Source: Candidatus Bathyarchaeota archaeon (GTDB lineage: Archaea; Thermoproteota; Bathyarchaeia; RBG-16-48-13; GCA-020355125). From it: a DNA stretch of 41,001 bases. Under the pieces are notes generated by a model. That model did not search any database. It worked only from the letters and a program-made list of their open reading frames with translations, and was not told the DNA's origin. The position numbers and the translations under genes are program-made. The stretch lies in contig JAOZHB010000036.1 of assembly GCA_026015035.1 (NCBI GenBank), positions 1 to 41,001 of the forward strand, in the 5' to 3' direction. This document shows positions 1 to 5,520 of this stretch, piece after piece (position 1 is the stretch's first letter; each line of letters starts with the position of its first letter).

Positions 1-189
1 TTCGTCGTCGAGAGTGATTTGCGAGCTAGGGCAACTGGAGACTTCACCAGTTTTCTGTTCGATCCAGATGAGGGGAACGCTTCTCGGCGAGTCCACGGAG
101 AACCCGAAGATTCTACCATACACTCGACCGTAAGAGTCATGAATTACCTCACCGATGACTGTCTTTGCTACATTCGTTTTGATTGACAT
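1..189 (-). CDS. cdvA: CdvA-like division protein, N-terminal part (cut by window edge)
   Basis: The first 63 codons of a gene that runs off the left edge. The start ATG (189-187) has a GGAGGAT ribosome site at 194-200. The peptide begins MSIKTNVAKTVIGEVIHDSY and continues with GRVYGRIFGF, a PRC-barrel-like beta domain as found at the N terminus of CdvA. In Sulfolobus, CdvA is a filament-forming coiled-coil protein that binds membrane and recruits ESCRT-III to the division site. The coiled coil and C-terminal E3B tail expected for CdvA would lie outside the window, so the call rests on this domain and on the CdvB gene 93 bases upstream. Alternative: another PRC-barrel protein. Confidence 0.72.
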   Translation of the reverse strand, partial: MSIKTNVAKTVIGEVIHDSYGRVYGRIFGFSVDSPRSVPLIWIEQKTGEVSSCPSSQITLDDE

Positions 190-282
190 GGCAATCCTCC
201 GATAGAGAGAGACCTAAAAAAGAAGGGGATTCCGCGTTTGACCCCGTTAATTTGATTCCTTTTCTACGCAGCTCTCGAGAAG

Positions 283-921
283 TTAATTCGATTTTTCTAG
301 GCTTGGTAGCGTGGTAGTGGGTAGTGTGGGGAACTTCTCTTTCATCTTTTGTTCAGCAATAGCGTTTGCATCTTCAAGGATCTTGTCAGCGGCTTCGCCA
401 GAGGTAATCACGTTCCAGCTTGTGGCGGTAACCCTGCCAGAATCTATTACAAGGTCGTTCAGTGAAGTTCCTATCTCACCTAGTCTATACGATACTTCGG
501 GGACGACGCCAGCTAAGTTTCCTTTAATCGAGTTTATCACGTTTGCCACAGGATTCATTTCCACCGCGATGTCGCCAAATTCTTCAACGGTCTCCAGCCG
601 TAGAACGACCTGCTCAATAGCAAATTGTCCTCTCAGGATCGTTTGACACATTTTCCTTATTTCGGCGCACTCGTTTGCATATATGGAAGCGCGTGCTGAG
701 TCTTTGGCGAGAACCGAGTTGGTGCATCGTCTAAAGAGACCGTTGTAGTGCTTCTGCATTCGTTGGTAAGCTTGTTCGAGACGCCCCTGCTGAACCTTTA
801 ACTTGTAGATGGTGAAGGTGATTTTTTCTCGGAGGGGTTGAGGCTTCCTCATGGCGTTCGCGATCTTCGAAAATGTTGATGGCTGATTACTACTTTCCCA
901 AGTCTTAAATATATCTGCCAT
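283..921 (-). CDS. cdvB: CdvB-type ESCRT-III protein
   Basis: A 212-residue Snf7/ESCRT-III-like protein, the polymer-forming part of the archaeal Cdv division and membrane-scission machinery. Residues about 30-170 are a charged, helical core starting near PLREKITFTIYKLKVQQGRL, typical of archaeal ESCRT-III. The tail (about 193-208) reads KFPTLPTTTLPSLE, which resembles the proline-rich MIM2 motif that binds the MIT domain of the CdvC/Vps4 ATPase. The protein ends straight after this motif. The C-terminal winged helix that Sulfolobus CdvB uses to bind CdvA is therefore absent, and in length it is closer to the CdvB1/B2 paralogues. The start ATG has AGGAGG at 930-935. It lies directly upstream of cdvA and probably shares a transcript with it. 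CdvC is not in the window. Confidence 0.85.
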   Translation of the reverse strand: MADIFKTWESSNQPSTFSKIANAMRKPQPLREKITFTIYKLKVQQGRLEQAYQRMQKHYNGLFRRCTNSVLAKDSARASIYANECAEIRKMCQTILRGQFAIEQVVLRLETVEEFGDIAVEMNPVANVINSIKGNLAGVVPEVSYRLGEIGTSLNDLVIDSGRVTATSWNVITSGEAADKILEDANAIAEQKMKEKFPTLPTTTLPSLEKSN

Positions 922-1153
922 CTATGTAACCTCCTCTTTTATTTCAAGTAACTTTTTTGTTAAACAACCCTTGGCCAAACCATTTAGACTTTTGTTACAG
1001 TTCTGTTGAAACCCGCGGGGGCATCGTGTTAAAATTAACTAAAAAAGTGCTAAATCTGGGCCTCGGCTTTTGTCAGGGTAATACGGTGAAAATCTCGGTA
1101 GGTAATACGATGAGAGCTAACTCTTTAAATCATGTGACGGCGTACGAGGGGTC
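922..1153. other. Intergenic region upstream of cdvB
   Basis: There is no convincing gene. On the minus strand it holds the cdvB ribosome site AGGAGG (930-935) and AT-rich candidates for a TATA box at about 935-945 and 952-966; neither is clear enough to choose. The upstream three-gene operon ends at its left boundary, so cdvBA could be transcribed alone or by read-through. Confidence 0.4.
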
Positions 1154-1744
1154 TCAGGGACTCGTAGGGGTTTGATCGCTGGACGGGCTTGTTTCGCCAC
1201 CGATGACCAGTTTAATCAGCGTCTTTTGGTCGATTTCGGCCCTTGCCCTCCAGTCGAGGTAGAGTACATCGTCCACCTCGTTGAGGTATCCCTGTCGGAT
1301 GTAGCGGTTGAGGTTACGCTCAACCCGCCACTTGGGAAATTTTTCCCGGAGAATCTGCTCAATGTCCCTTCGAGCGGCCTTCCCCTGTTTCGAAATGATG
1401 TATGAAACGGTGACGACGAGGGCTGCGACGTCATCCACGCGCCACCCAGACATAACCAAGTCAGATGCCGTCAGAGGCTCCTTCACGGCCACGTAGAATC
1501 GGGCTCGGTCAAGTTGTTCACTCGTTGGGTTTTGAGGCCGCTCTGAACCCTCGTAAACGGTGTTCACCTGTAAGCCTAAACTCGAAAGTTGGTGATTCAA
1601 CAGGTCGACGATTTTAATGTACTCCTTTCCCAGAGCTCTCCGAAGCTCCCATCCCTTGACCCCCGGCTGTCGATGTCGTCTATAGAAAATGATTTTTGCC
1701 GCTCTCTTCACTCGTCTAACGTAGGCTCCTGTGTCTTCAGCCAA
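1154..1744 (-). CDS. Kite/MAGE-like tandem winged-helix protein (Nse3-like SMC partner)
   Basis: A 196-residue protein, third gene of the SMC-like operon. It looks like two winged helices: residues about 8-62, and about 95-180. The second ends in GYLNEVDDVLYLDWRARAEI (152-171), which matches in pattern the end of MAGE/Nse3 domains, where a YL-x-hydrophobic segment is followed by WGPRA and an acidic helix. Nse1, Nse3, ScpB and MukE are Kite proteins that dimerise and bind the kleisin of SMC complexes. The start is TTG (1744-1742), one base after the kleisin stop, with its GGAGGG ribosome site inside the end of the preceding gene; this implies translational coupling. The last 15 residues are a Pro/Ser/Thr tail. 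Family assignment is by pattern, not by alignment. Confidence 0.6.
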   Translation of the reverse strand: MAEDTGAYVRRVKRAAKIIFYRRHRQPGVKGWELRRALGKEYIKIVDLLNHQLSSLGLQVNTVYEGSERPQNPTSEQLDRARFYVAVKEPLTASDLVMSGWRVDDVAALVVTVSYIISKQGKAARRDIEQILREKFPKWRVERNLNRYIRQGYLNEVDDVLYLDWRARAEIDQKTLIKLVIGGETSPSSDQTPTSP

Positions 1745-1745
1745 C

Positions 1746-2543
1746 TTATCGTCCCTCCGCCATTTCTTTCCAGAGGTCGTAGTCGATGGAGATGGGAAAC
1801 GAAATCATCTGCTCCGTAAAGGAAAGCTCTCTAGGCTCCATGTGAGGGACGAGAAACGTTTCTTCTTCTATGGGCTCTATCTCCATTGTGGCAAAGCCGT
1901 AGGTGACCAAGAAGCTTGTTAAATACGCTCGTACCACGGTCTCCTCATAGGACGGCGCGTAAATGAAGTCCCAATAGTGAATCCGCCCCTCTCCAGCAAC
2001 CTTCTCTTTAAGTTCTAACCAGAACTTTTGGAGGAGGCCGGTGAAGGACTCTTCATTGACAATTCGAGCTTTAATGAGCTCTTCGATGCTTGTGAGGTCG
2101 AGGACGCCTGTGGGCTCAGGCAGCTTCATCAGCCGATCCTCGAGGGATTGAAGTTGATTCCAATAGTCGATGGCCTCCAGGACCCGCTTGTTGGAAAGAC
2201 GGTCCATTTCGATCACGGGGTGCCACGTCCTTCGAAAGATCTCTAAGAGTTTTTCGGGTTCCAACATCTTAACTTTCAACTCGATGAGGAGGGGGTCGAC
2301 GAAGAGGGTGGTCGATCGATGTTTGATCCAATTCCCTTGAAGGCTGACGATGGACGAGATGCGGTTCAGGGTTGCAGCGTCTAAGGCGAAGTCCTCAAGG
2401 GCGCTCCAATGGGGAAGATACTTCCGCAAGGTTTCAAGAGCCTCTTTGACCTCGACTTCGAAGGGGTTTCCACCCTTCCGTTCTATGGCCACACACGTGC
2501 TGATGATCCTCAATAGACGTTCCCTATCTTTGCTGCTCTTCAC
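1746..2543 (-). CDS. Kleisin-like protein (Nse4/ScpA-type candidate)
   Basis: A 265-residue protein between the SMC-like ATPase and the Kite-like gene. Residues 1-60 are helical and could be the N-terminal domain that contacts the SMC neck. Residues about 199-232 (from SYEETVVRAYLTSFLVTYGF through an acidic strand to FLVP) resemble the small C-terminal winged helix of kleisins, which caps the SMC head. The middle is acidic and helical, as expected for a linker that binds Kite proteins. The start is GTG at 2543-2541, because the nearby ATG is followed by TGA. The ATPase stop lies 6 bases upstream. No close family is recognised by sequence alone. The kleisin role is inferred from position, size and the C-terminal pattern. 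Confidence 0.55.
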   Translation of the reverse strand: MKSSKDRERLLRIISTCVAIERKGGNPFEVEVKEALETLRKYLPHWSALEDFALDAATLNRISSIVSLQGNWIKHRSTTLFVDPLLIELKVKMLEPEKLLEIFRRTWHPVIEMDRLSNKRVLEAIDYWNQLQSLEDRLMKLPEPTGVLDLTSIEELIKARIVNEESFTGLLQKFWLELKEKVAGEGRIHYWDFIYAPSYEETVVRAYLTSFLVTYGFATMEIEPIEEETFLVPHMEPRELSFTEQMISFPISIDYDLWKEMAEGR

Positions 2544-2549
2544 ATACGA

Positions 2550-4496
2550 TCACTCCACCACGCTTACCTCGGATCGCCCCTCAAGGTTTTGAACGGTAAT
2601 GACGTGAACCGCCTTATCAACGTTGGTAATTTGCCCCGGCGTTATGGTGAGATACTGGGTTTCCCGACTTCCCCGCACCTCCTTGTAGAGCAAATCAGAA
2701 ATCGTCTCTCTGTTCTTGGGATCCATATGAATGTCGAACTCGTCCACCGCCCGGAACGGTGATTTCACGTATTGCTGAAGCGCCAAAAGAAACGCCATGG
2801 TTGCGGTGCTTCTCTCGCCGCCGCTCTGGGTATAAGAGTCCAGAATGGCGGGCTCCGCTCCTTTGAAGCCCACCGTCAACTCCAAGCCCATTGTTTCGAC
2901 GTCCTGGGTGTTAACTAACCGGATGTTACCAGTGGCATTGATCCGGAAAAGGAAGTTTTGGTATGGAACGCTTACTTCGTCGAGGAGGGATTGAATGATG
3001 CTGATCCACAGTCTCTTACGTTCCGCAACCTCATTCAAGACACTCGCCCTGTTCTCCGAGACCACCTCTACCTTTTGCTTCAAATCGTTGAACACGTTCA
3101 GATACGTCAAATACATTTGTTCAATGTCCTCAGAGAGCTTACCAATGGTTGCGAGTTGAATACTGGCGACGCGTATGTCGTCAGAGATCTCTTGAGGGCT
3201 TCTCACAGCCTTCATCGGTGCACCTGCCGCTTCTAACCGGGGTTGAAAGGCCTCCACGCCCCTCAGGGCGTGTCCCAACTCGTCTTTCAAATAAGTCAAC
3301 TCCCTACGCGCGGCCTCACTTTGAAACGTTAACAGGCCTTCCCTAACCCGCTCGTCTACATATTGTTGTTCAGCGCGAGTCCGTTCTTCGTCAAACACAG
3401 CCAATTGGGATTGAAGAGCCGACGTCTTGAAGTCGAGATCCTTCACCACGGTCTGAGACAGGGATATTTTCGCGTGCAGCTCATCGACGTAACCCTCTAA
3501 CGCGTCCAGCGTTTCTTTAACCGCATAAGCGTCCGGCTGAACCTTAAGGTTCAGAAGTTCCCCGATTTTATTGAGGGTCGCACTGCCGATTTTAGCCGTG
3601 ACTTGATGCTCTGTCTTTTCCTTTTCAAGCGTCATCAAGGAGTAAAAGGATTGGCGCTGTTCAAACCGGAGGGAGTTCAAGTCGCTGCCTCTTTGCTTGA
3701 TTAAGGCTTGGGTGCGGACAATCTCCTGTTCGAGGTCGGCTAGGCTTGCTTCTTTCCGTTCAACCTTCTCCTGCCACGCGGTGACGAGAGCCTCCTGCTT
3801 AGCTAGCTCCGCCCAAACAAGCTCTCGCCCCAGAAAGGTTTTTCTCTGAAGAACTTCCTTTCGTCTCTGGTATTTCTCGTACTCTTCTTTCCAGTAGGCA
3901 AGGGTTTGCTCCGCGTTTTCGAAGAGGGTTTTAACAGACTCTTCCTGACTCAGAACTTGAGTCAACTTGTCTTGGGCTTCTAAAACGTTCTGTCGGTACG
4001 CGCCTAAGCCAACCGCCTCCTCAACCATGGTCAGCCTCTGGACGAGTGTAGTTATGCCAAACTCTTCCATCATGCGTTGGTGCATGATGATGAGCATGTT
4101 ATCCGGGTTTATGCCGAAATCGTTTAAAATGGAGGTGACTTCCCTCTTGTTAACCGTCTTAAAGTTCACTTCAAACCAGTAGGCCCCTTCCTTCTTCAGG
4201 TACCGGGAAACCCGAAAGTAATCCACGTCAAACCGTGGTACAGGTCTCTTCCCCTGTCTCGGCGTGTTATCGAAAACAAGGGTCACTCTAGCGCTGTCTT
4301 CACCCCATCGAATGAGATCACTGAGCTTTCGCGATCTTTCGGTGTAGGCTTGTCCTAAGGCGACTGATATTGCAAGTAGAAGAGAGGATTTCCCGGAGCC
4401 GTTTGGACCGCAAATGATGTTCAGGCCTGGTTTTAACGGAATTCTCGCGTATTCATAGGACATAAAGTTCTCAAGGATTATTTCGCGAAGCAGCAC
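2550..4496 (-). CDS. Short SMC-like ATPase related to Smc5/Smc6
   Basis: A 648-residue ABC-type ATPase with split head domains. Walker A is GPNGSGKSS (30-38); a Q-loop candidate is MHQRM (138-142). A coiled coil runs from about 175 to 500. The ABC signature is SGGERS (558-563) and Walker B is FRAVDEFDIHMDPKNR (581-596). The last segment, followed by QYLTITP, recalls both Smc5 (PFR-VVDE, MDP-N, ITP) and Smc6 (LDEFDV-MD--NR). The coiled-coil arms are short: canonical SMCs are about 1,150-1,200 residues. I see no typical hinge domain and no CxxC zinc hook, so it is neither a normal SMC nor Rad50. The start is GTG (4496-4494), and a good TATA box lies 41 bases upstream. It probably loads on or tethers DNA with the kleisin- and Kite-like proteins encoded downstream. 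Confidence 0.8.
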   Translation of the reverse strand: MLLREIILENFMSYEYARIPLKPGLNIICGPNGSGKSSLLLAISVALGQAYTERSRKLSDLIRWGEDSARVTLVFDNTPRQGKRPVPRFDVDYFRVSRYLKKEGAYWFEVNFKTVNKREVTSILNDFGINPDNMLIIMHQRMMEEFGITTLVQRLTMVEEAVGLGAYRQNVLEAQDKLTQVLSQEESVKTLFENAEQTLAYWKEEYEKYQRRKEVLQRKTFLGRELVWAELAKQEALVTAWQEKVERKEASLADLEQEIVRTQALIKQRGSDLNSLRFEQRQSFYSLMTLEKEKTEHQVTAKIGSATLNKIGELLNLKVQPDAYAVKETLDALEGYVDELHAKISLSQTVVKDLDFKTSALQSQLAVFDEERTRAEQQYVDERVREGLLTFQSEAARRELTYLKDELGHALRGVEAFQPRLEAAGAPMKAVRSPQEISDDIRVASIQLATIGKLSEDIEQMYLTYLNVFNDLKQKVEVVSENRASVLNEVAERKRLWISIIQSLLDEVSVPYQNFLFRINATGNIRLVNTQDVETMGLELTVGFKGAEPAILDSYTQSGGERSTATMAFLLALQQYVKSPFRAVDEFDIHMDPKNRETISDLLYKEVRGSRETQYLTITPGQITNVDKAVHVITVQNLEGRSEVSVVE

Positions 4497-4910: not shown

Positions 4911-5210
4911 CTACTCTTCTACAACGGATATTTTTCCACTTCGTTTTCGCACATTCAACTGACTCACACCTCGGAACTGGCTGACATACCCATTTTCTAT
5001 TTGGATCGTGTCACCTGCCGAAACGCTGTCAATTTGGTCGTTCCACAAAATCAGCTTAATCGAGCCCGTTTCATCGGAGATCTGAACCTGGGAAACACGA
5101 TGAACGTTGAAGCCGTACCTCGAATACACTTCCCGCGTCTCAGATTTTTCAACAATCTTTCCCCGAACATCAATATTTTTCATGCCTACTCTAAGTTCAC
5201 CAATGTTCAA
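4911..5210 (-). CDS. ssb: Single-stranded DNA-binding protein, OB fold
   Basis: A 99-residue OB-fold protein of the crenarchaeal SSB type, coating single-stranded DNA in replication and repair. It starts MNIGELRVGMKNIDVRGKIV. The pattern ISDETGSIKLILWNDQ (about 59-74), followed by a G-D-x-I-x-I-x-N-G strand and an FRGVSQLNV strand, is the usual OB barrel of this family. The frame is open back to 5258, but I prefer the TTG at 5210-5208. It is preceded by AGGACGTGAT, close to the anti-16S consensus, and it gives the normal family N terminus. It lacks the acidic flexible tail of Sulfolobus SSB. A TATA candidate lies at 5286-5296. Confidence 0.85.
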   Translation of the reverse strand: MNIGELRVGMKNIDVRGKIVEKSETREVYSRYGFNVHRVSQVQISDETGSIKLILWNDQIDSVSAGDTIQIENGYVSQFRGVSQLNVRKRSGKISVVEE

Positions 5211-5520
5211 ACATAAATCACGTCCTAGCAAACAGGCTCGCCATGGACAACCAGGCAAATCCTGTCAAACCTAACCCATTAAAACATATATTAATGTTTA
5301 GAAGGCCTTCAACTAGCATTACCCTTTTCAATCGAAGCCCTTAGATATGAGTTGGTTAATGCTTGGAGCCTTGAAGTAGTGAAAAACCCTCCCAAGGTTT
5401 CCTGCTGTGATGTCAATCTTGAAGCCGTTGAAACGAATGAAAGAGTCTCACGGGGGAACGGTGTGAAGAGGGTGTGAGGCTGAGTAAGGTGATACGTTCG
5501 CACTTAGCCACGACTGCTCC
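5211..5520. other. Gap between ssb and cooC
   Basis: About 310 bases without a supported gene. The ssb promoter is at its left end (minus-strand TATA-like AT run at 5286-5296). The remainder, 5300-5520, has only a 64-codon frame with low-complexity composition and no ribosome site, which I do not accept. No tRNA, repeat or clear hairpin was seen. Confidence 0.4.

Follow-up and report, generated by a model that had tools for sequence, protein, structure and literature searches.

SMC complexes are usually defined by two features, dimerisation through a hinge and the closed ring that the SMC proteins form with a kleisin. The least understood of the eukaryotic complexes is Smc5/6, which handles DNA in human and yeast cells and whose core consists of Smc5, Smc6, the kleisin Nse4 and the Kite proteins Nse1 and Nse3. 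Archaeal 'SMC5/6-related' SMC ATPases have already been published (Yoshinaga & Inagaki 2021, as described in PMC9389158); the portion of PMC9389158 that concerns them deals with the ATPase and does not mention a kleisin, a Kite protein, arm length or hinge loss, and partners may be covered by van Hooff et al. 2025 (Cell Rep 44:115855). Archaea also have small SMC-family ATPases of the coalescin/ASRP type (ClsN, Sph), most of which are equipped with a zinc hook and lack consensus neighbour genes (PMC9389158). Here we describe an operon from a Candidatus Bathyarchaeota archaeon that encodes a miniature SMC ATPase (the mini SMC), a kleisin and a Kite protein. All three proteins belong, with very little doubt, to the Smc5/6 branch, and this hinge-less operon appears to be a new form among the archaeal SMC5/6-related systems. 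We consider it probable, taking the statement as a whole, that the trio forms a housekeeping SMC-kleisin-Kite complex of that branch, reduced to its head module and working as a clamp.

The window, the whole stretch of DNA analysed, is 41,001 nucleotides long, and the trio lies on its minus strand at 1154-4496, read in the order SMC, kleisin, Kite with intergenic gaps of 6 and 1 bases (Table 1). A check of the open reading frames found spacing and protein lengths exactly as first described in an earlier note on this DNA. Between two species of the window's genus, dN/dS is 0.16 for the SMC gene, 0.18 for the kleisin gene and 0.10 for the Kite gene, and all three are under purifying selection.

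Table 1. Features of the operon and its neighbours, in window coordinates.
Feature	Position	Strand	Basis
CdvB (ESCRT-III) gene beside the operon, neighbour	283..921	-	NCBIfam CdvB1/B2 1e-60
Kite protein, tandem winged helix, Nse1/Nse3-like, 196 aa	1154..1744	-	AF2 pLDDT 83; Foldseek
Kleisin, Nse4-like, 265 aa	1746..2543	-	Nse4_C 2.4e-4; PDB profile search, Nse4 1e-4
Nse4_C-matching part, kleisin C-terminal winged helix	1755..1982	-	Pfam, AF2, fold search
Kleisin N-terminal helices, putative SMC-neck binder	2313..2540	-	AF2 H2-23, H32-45, H49-77; weak ScpA match, E 0.19
Mini SMC ATPase, 648 aa, SMC5/6-related, without recognisable hinge	2550..4496	-	SMC_N 1e-36; Smc5/6 best PDB relatives; tree
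Walker B/D-loop SPFRAVDEFDIHMDPKNR, Smc5/Smc6 blend (Walker B string PFRAVDEFDIHMDPKNR, residues 580-596)	2709..2762	-	sequence
ABC signature QSGGERS (Smc5-like)	2808..2828	-	sequence and family alignment
Tip of short coiled-coil hairpin, least conserved part, no hinge, no CxxC hook	3453..3563	-	conservation 0.28-0.30
Walker A GPNGSGKS	4386..4409	-	sequence; near-invariant in 29 members
OB-fold single-stranded DNA-binding protein, upstream of SMC gene, neighbour	4911..5258	-	Ssb-like_OB 1.5e-10

The operon is conserved in one Bathyarchaeota class; the kleisin occurs in 21 of the 22 families sampled and, across the phylum, in 126 of 300 genomes. The gene order, whose conservation in related genomes the earlier note had proposed to check, is kept in 43 of the 50 kleisin loci examined, with the genes mostly abutting or overlapping. 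The match of the mini SMC sequence by itself to Smc5 at 5e-32, this recurrence and the dN/dS values place the operon far from chance. Most of the class has a single operonic SMC and a single Kite gene per genome, and a separate canonical SMC coexists in genomes that carry the operon. In one genome the mini SMC was suspected of decay, but its N-terminal end continues into undetermined bases, and the idea was dropped.

Directly beside the operon, in the window's genus, lies a complete CdvABC (ESCRT) division cluster, of which the window's CdvB is the first gene (CdvB-CdvA-CdvB-CdvC, complete in two loci), and in genus g1 a single strand carries, in order, ParA, the OB protein, SMC, kleisin, Kite, CdvB, CdvA, CdvB and CdvC. 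Together with the adjacency of Kite and CdvB in all five genomes of the family in which it could be checked, this run of genes invites the reading that the complex serves division or segregation by clearing or organising DNA at the Cdv site, hence its CdvABC and ParA-like neighbours. The adjacency is nearly confined to that one family, however, recurring only loosely in two other genomes; CdvB has no match in ten kleisin-positive genomes, several CdvB-bearing genomes are without the complex, and the existence of genomes with one and not the other weakens a general functional tie to Cdv. We regard a division role as unlikely and return to a housekeeping complex of the Smc5/6 branch, for which the proteins themselves provide the evidence.

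The Walker B of the mini SMC shares PFRxVDE with Smc5 (APFRVVDEINQGMD) and SPFRxxDEFDVxMDxxNR with human SMC6, so that the mixture of Smc5 and Smc6 features claimed in the earlier note was confirmed, and its signature TQSGGER is the Smc5 version. When a profile of the mini SMC was compared with PDB chains, every Smc5 and Smc6 chain (194-227 bits) ranked above any full-length SMC1-4 chain (at most 154 bits), while Rad50 reached 43 bits; in the converse test, a canonical archaeal SMC profile gave 268-389 bits for full-length SMC1-4 and had no Smc5/6 chain among its listed matches (E 1e-40). In trees of the head domain the mini SMC, an archaeal protein, joins eukaryotic Smc5/6 and their Asgard relatives to the exclusion of canonical SMC. 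Support for the Smc5/6-branch clade was 91.5/96 and 95/95, with UFBoot values of 95-97 for the Smc5/6-type and canonical clades alike; support for eukaryotic Smc5/6 as the strict sister of the Bathyarchaeota-type SMC was low, at SH-aLRT 29-42 and UFBoot 83-86. Profile ranking and trees thus place the ATPase with Smc5/6 and away from Rad50/SbcC, and the mini SMC most likely belongs to the published archaeal SMC5/6-related SMC, as far as a comparison by description allows. Rad50/SbcC was rejected as an identity because the CxxC motif is absent and Rad50 scored 43 bits against 227 for Smc5/6. The ASRPs (coalescin/Sph), which resemble the mini SMC in length, were likewise set aside, as the ASRP model gave 47.7 bits against a cut-off of 300 and CxxC is absent.

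The two partners point to the same branch. The Nse4_C model matches 24 of 29 kleisin family members, at best with 5.7e-6, and its match to the window kleisin lies below the Pfam curated cut-off; when a profile of the family was run against all PDB sequences, Nse4 was the sole significant match. The predicted structure is moderately confident (pLDDT 75, pTM 0.41), and the kleisin-type C-terminal winged helix, nearest to Nse4 by sequence and by fold, upholds the original assignment of this protein as a kleisin. As for the Kite protein, the window sequence matched no Kite family in Pfam and the family profile found nothing meaningful among PDB sequences, so that a search by fold was needed. The top Foldseek matches of its model are MAGEG1-NSE1 and Nse1-Nse3-Nse4 (2e-6 to 8e-5). 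The likeness to MAGE/Nse3 proposed in the earlier note therefore holds for the fold, a tandem winged helix with MAGEG1, Nse1 and Nse3 as best relatives, but is weak in sequence, where MAGE/Nse3 was matched by 2 of 33 members (best E 0.064).

It might be argued that the mini SMC is a short-armed member of the canonical SMC-ScpAB family whose Smc5/6-like motifs arose by convergence. Kite-bearing complexes have a general fold in common, and AU tests on quick trees from shallow searches left the grouping of mini and canonical SMC unrejected (p 0.24), though these trees did not separate most alternatives and rejected only the grouping of eukaryotic Smc5/6 with canonical SMC (p 0.035). Against this stand the PFR and QSGGER motifs, the profile ranking, the bootstrap values of both clades, a kleisin that matches Nse4 and not ScpA, and the canonical SMC that the same genomes have of their own, which together make convergence highly improbable. 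Membership of SMC-ScpAB was itself rejected, the mini SMC scoring 179 bits with SMC_prok_A against a cut-off of 729, with no significant ScpA or ScpB match and no hinge. A Wadjet/Lamassu-like defence complex against plasmids or viruses, suggested by the SMC-type ATPase and its weak likeness to the LmuB and mad3 models of PADLOC, is scarcely credible, and membership was rejected, given that neither kleisin nor Kite matches a PADLOC model, that the operon has no nuclease or effector gene, and that the genes are spread across the class, mostly in single copy, under purifying selection.

As a member of the Smc5/6 branch, the operon shares with the eukaryotic core its composition, the ATPase head motifs, an Nse4-type kleisin and the Nse1/Nse3-type Kite fold; it differs in having one SMC gene and one Kite gene where Smc5/6 has two of each, and no Nse1 RING, Nse2 or Nse5/6 is encoded among its proteins. 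The arms differ as well. In Smc5/6 a hinge joins long arms, whereas here the arms are far shorter hairpins, in line with the very short arms foreseen in the earlier note, and the operonic SMCs are 635-756 aa long. What had not been anticipated is the absence of a recognisable hinge: SMC_hinge is not among the Pfam matches listed for the mini SMC, our own hinge profile found no match in the short SMCs whereas it detected the positive controls, and a CxxC hook motif was present in 0 of 19 short SMCs checked. Judging from sequence, the operonic SMC has apparently lost its hinge.

Gene content suggests a 2:1:2 stoichiometry of SMC, kleisin and Kite. Two copies of the mini SMC would enclose two ATPs at the interface of their heads, and the kleisin would contact one head at its neck through the N-terminal helices and the other at its cap through the C-terminal winged helix. 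A Kite homodimer would occupy the central part of the kleisin, and ATP binding would close this homodimer over DNA on the engaged heads, in the manner of Nse1/Nse3. Such clamping of DNA by Kite proteins on engaged heads, including the Nse3-dominated clamp of Smc5/6, is established in other complexes (PMC10512200). Because the arms are short hairpins without hinge or hook, the SMC dimer would be held only by ATP and the kleisin-Kite bridge, and DNA would consequently be caught by the head clamp instead of within a large SMC ring. We give this clamp mechanism an even chance. In the cell the complex may act as a local clamp and compactor of DNA or junctions beside the canonical SMC, and not as a long-range loop extruder.

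The homodimer is not to be assumed in the window's own family, where, and only where, there is a second SMC, long-armed (1039-1067 aa) and with a Rad50-like CxxC motif, which is the product of a duplication. We lean, if only slightly, towards a history in which a complex of the Smc5/6 branch works without a hinge, its DNA held by the head clamp alone, and in which one family duplicated the hinge-less SMC and lengthened it again with a Rad50-like zinc hook, so that the second SMC may be a partner of the first or a substitute for it.

SMC-kleisin-Kite operons were also found at seven Asgard loci. They share the gene order and the SMC clade with the Bathyarchaeota operon, and profiles from the window's family recognise the kleisins and Kites of the Asgard group with SMCs of 831-840 aa; they differ in that their SMCs (831-840 or 1122-1126 aa) are hinged and in an AAA ATPase gene directly upstream wherever the contig reaches. 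Of the earlier suggestion that the complex is a possible relative of the Smc5/6 ancestor, kinship is supported by the profiles, the trees, the kleisin and the Kite fold, but the word ancestor is not, since the short, hinge-less form looks derived beside the hinged Asgard relatives. With three-gene archaeal relatives of Smc5/6 both with and without hinges, the order in which hinge, arm and subunit duplication were gained or lost becomes testable. A conserved complex without a hinge would help to separate the activities (ATPase, DNA clamping, compaction, loop extrusion) that depend on the ring from those for which heads, kleisin and Kites suffice, and this cut-down operon of three archaeal genes offers a simple system in which to approach the origin and the core capabilities of Smc5/6.

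The minus-strand operon of the window, which is contig C114, consists, as the earlier note had described it, of three reading frames separated by 6 and 1 bases and encoding an SMC-type ATPase (the mini SMC), a kleisin and a Kite protein, whose sizes and order were also confirmed. The ATPase matches SMC_N at 1e-36, and its motifs are of Smc5/Smc6 type: the signature QSGGER is shared with Smc5, the Walker B aspartate is preceded by PFR, which Smc5 and human SMC6 also have at this place (most of the canonical SMCs sampled show PFY or PFC), and DEFDxHMDPxNR is close to the DEFDVYMDxxNR of human SMC6. When a profile of 29 homologs was run against all PDB sequences, ten Smc5 and Smc6 chains ranked at the top with 194–227 bits, above canonical SMC head constructs (174 and 157 bits), SMC2 and SMC3 (154 bits and less) and Rad50 (43 bits). 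In the reverse test, a canonical archaeal SMC profile scored full-length SMC1–4 chains at 268–389 bits, and no Smc5/6 chain reached E 1e-40.

Both partner proteins kept the identities first proposed for them. The kleisin is predicted to fold into N-terminal helices and a C-terminal winged helix, with best fold matches to Nse4 and then to the C-terminal domains of ScpA and Scc1. Its Nse4_C match (2.4e-4) lies under Pfam's cut-off; 24 of 29 family members match this model, the best at 5.7e-6, and against the whole PDB the family profile finds only Nse4 above noise (yeast 1e-4, human EID3 9e-4). For the Kite protein, structure prediction gives a tandem winged helix at fair confidence (pLDDT 83). 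Among 350,542 PDB chains this fold is closest to MAGEG1-NSE1 and Nse1-Nse3-Nse4, and MukE and ScpB match less well.

A tree of SMC heads only (382–383 columns, the eukaryotic sequences taken from HMMER alignments) joins the mini SMCs in one clade with eukaryotic Smc5/6 and a number of Asgard SMCs (SH-aLRT/UFBoot 91.5/96; 95/95 with four eukaryotic sequences), from which canonical SMCs are set apart (90/97; 82/97 with the four) and Rad50 is likewise separate. Within the clade, the choice of Bathyarchaeota-type versus Asgard-type SMCs as sister of eukaryotic Smc5/6 has low support (29/86), and in AU tests on quick trees the sole rejected grouping was eukaryotic Smc5/6 with canonical SMC.

Profile searches found Asgard operons with SMC, kleisin and Kite genes ordered as in the window. 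Their SMCs have 831–840 aa (L283–L285; L286 is cut by a contig end) or 1122–1126 aa (L291, L292, L298), and the kleisin of L280 is Nse4_C-like (0.0013). At L280 two adjacent frames of 313 and 322 aa follow the SMC, one of them Nse4_C-like, an unusual kleisin arrangement. Directly upstream of the Asgard SMC gene, at L283–L285, L291, L292, L298, L280 and L281, lies a gene for a CDC48/PAN/IteA-like AAA ATPase.

The operonic SMCs of the class have only 635–756 aa. Up to E 1, SMC_hinge had no match in the window protein, nor was there one among the matches listed for the 29 homologs. With a hinge profile derived from the class's canonical SMCs, a hinge was detected in the SMCs tested from the canonical, bacterial and Asgard sets, the 831–840 aa Asgard proteins among them (E 0.0013 or better; Pfam SMC_hinge in L284, 1.3e-13); in the mini SMCs the only matches were marginal ones that lay outside the hinge core. 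The arm tip is their least conserved part (0.28–0.30), and a CxxC is absent from all 19 short SMCs checked. Most simply, the hinge would have been lost on the lineage leading to the mini SMC, an order of events inferred from the hinged Asgard relatives.

In the window's family there is also a second, long-armed SMC, of 1067 aa in the window's assembly (contig C109, locus L091) and 1039 aa in G006 (contig C47, locus L093), with partial copies in G001, G002, G003 and G005. Its centre reads CDKCGSxL...W..HL, like the CxxC of the Rad50 zinc hook, its head nests within the mini family beside the window protein (98/99; 97/99 with four eukaryotic sequences), and its genes do not adjoin kleisin or Kite. 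The long form arose through duplication inside this family.

Among 61 genomes sampled from the class, the kleisin was found in 49 (21 of 22 families), an SMC match in 51 and the Kite in 47. The conservation of gene order, which the earlier note asked to check, was seen in 43 of 50 loci, where all three genes lie in the same order and strand within the stretch retrieved, mostly overlapping or abutting; the other seven include contig ends and real separations (for example in genus g2 and family f11). In genus g2, whose genomes are 65–78% complete, the search for a mini SMC next to kleisin and Kite found none. Across the phylum the kleisin occurs in 126 of 300 genomes (59 of 127 genera), and all three genes are present in L113, a record titled Thermofilales, in which a gene for a 968-aa protein with no match in Pfam or NCBIfam comes right after the Kite gene. 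Within-genus dN/dS is 0.10–0.18. A separate canonical-type SMC was matched in 24 of 26 genomes searched with a canonical SMC model, and in the window's genome a full-length copy lies on contig C82; because the same genomes have this separate canonical SMC, the SMC-kleisin-Kite complex is a second SMC system.

Downstream of the operon in the window's genus come CdvB, CdvA, another CdvB and CdvC (MIT plus Vps4-type AAA), and the Kite gene also adjoins CdvB in G003, G004 and G005. In other families the two are only loosely linked or not linked at all, several genomes having one system without the other, and the adjacency is taken as a hint of a role tied to division, not as evidence of mechanism. 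L300 (contig C56 of the window's assembly) carries a second kleisin-Kite-CdvB copy, about 95–97% identical to window 1–2600, which fits a mixed-strain bin (7% contamination). A conserved gene for a protein of about 230 aa lies near the mini SMC gene at six loci; the one member scanned, from L101, matched nothing in Pfam and NCBIfam.

Coordinates of the operon, its paralogs and neighbouring genes
Locus	Coordinates	Feature	Strand
Window	2550-4496	mini SMC, 648 aa	minus
Window	1746-2543	kleisin, 265 aa	minus
Window	1154-1744	Kite, 196 aa	minus
Window	283-921	CdvB	minus
L300	5937-9390	complete CdvB-CdvA-CdvB-CdvC directly downstream of operon, continuing window CdvB	
L301	5508-8955	complete CdvB-CdvA-CdvB-CdvC directly downstream of operon, continuing window CdvB	
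L091	1657-4857	long SMC	
L093	1924-5040	long SMC	
L280	8398-10324	two frames after Asgard SMC	
L113	3984-6887	968-aa protein	
L101	5524-6219	~230 aa protein	opposite to mini SMC
L099	2770-3450	~230 aa protein	opposite to mini SMC
L109	11374-12054	~230 aa protein	opposite to mini SMC
L112	1483-2256	~230 aa protein	opposite to mini SMC
L114	2267-2977	~230 aa protein	opposite to mini SMC
L115	5152-5838	~230 aa protein	opposite to mini SMC

An archaeal 'SMC5/6-related' ATPase clade has been published (Yoshinaga & Inagaki 2021, as described in PMC9389158). No hinge-less SMC-kleisin-Kite complex and no zinc-hook paralog came up in the literature searched, which does not prove that none has been described. 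A study by van Hooff et al. 2025 (Cell Rep 44:115855), by its title on archaeal ancestors of SMC complexes, may describe partner subunits. Archaeal ATPases of this kind are already known, and the hinge-less operon appears to be new.

Stoichiometry, clamping and cellular role are what we infer for the complex. By analogy with solved Kite complexes (PMC10512200), ATP-engaged heads together with the kleisin and a Kite dimer should clamp DNA. Having neither hinge nor hook, the SMC dimer would be dependent on ATP and kleisin-Kite, which makes a clamp at the heads likelier than a large ring or a long-range extruder.
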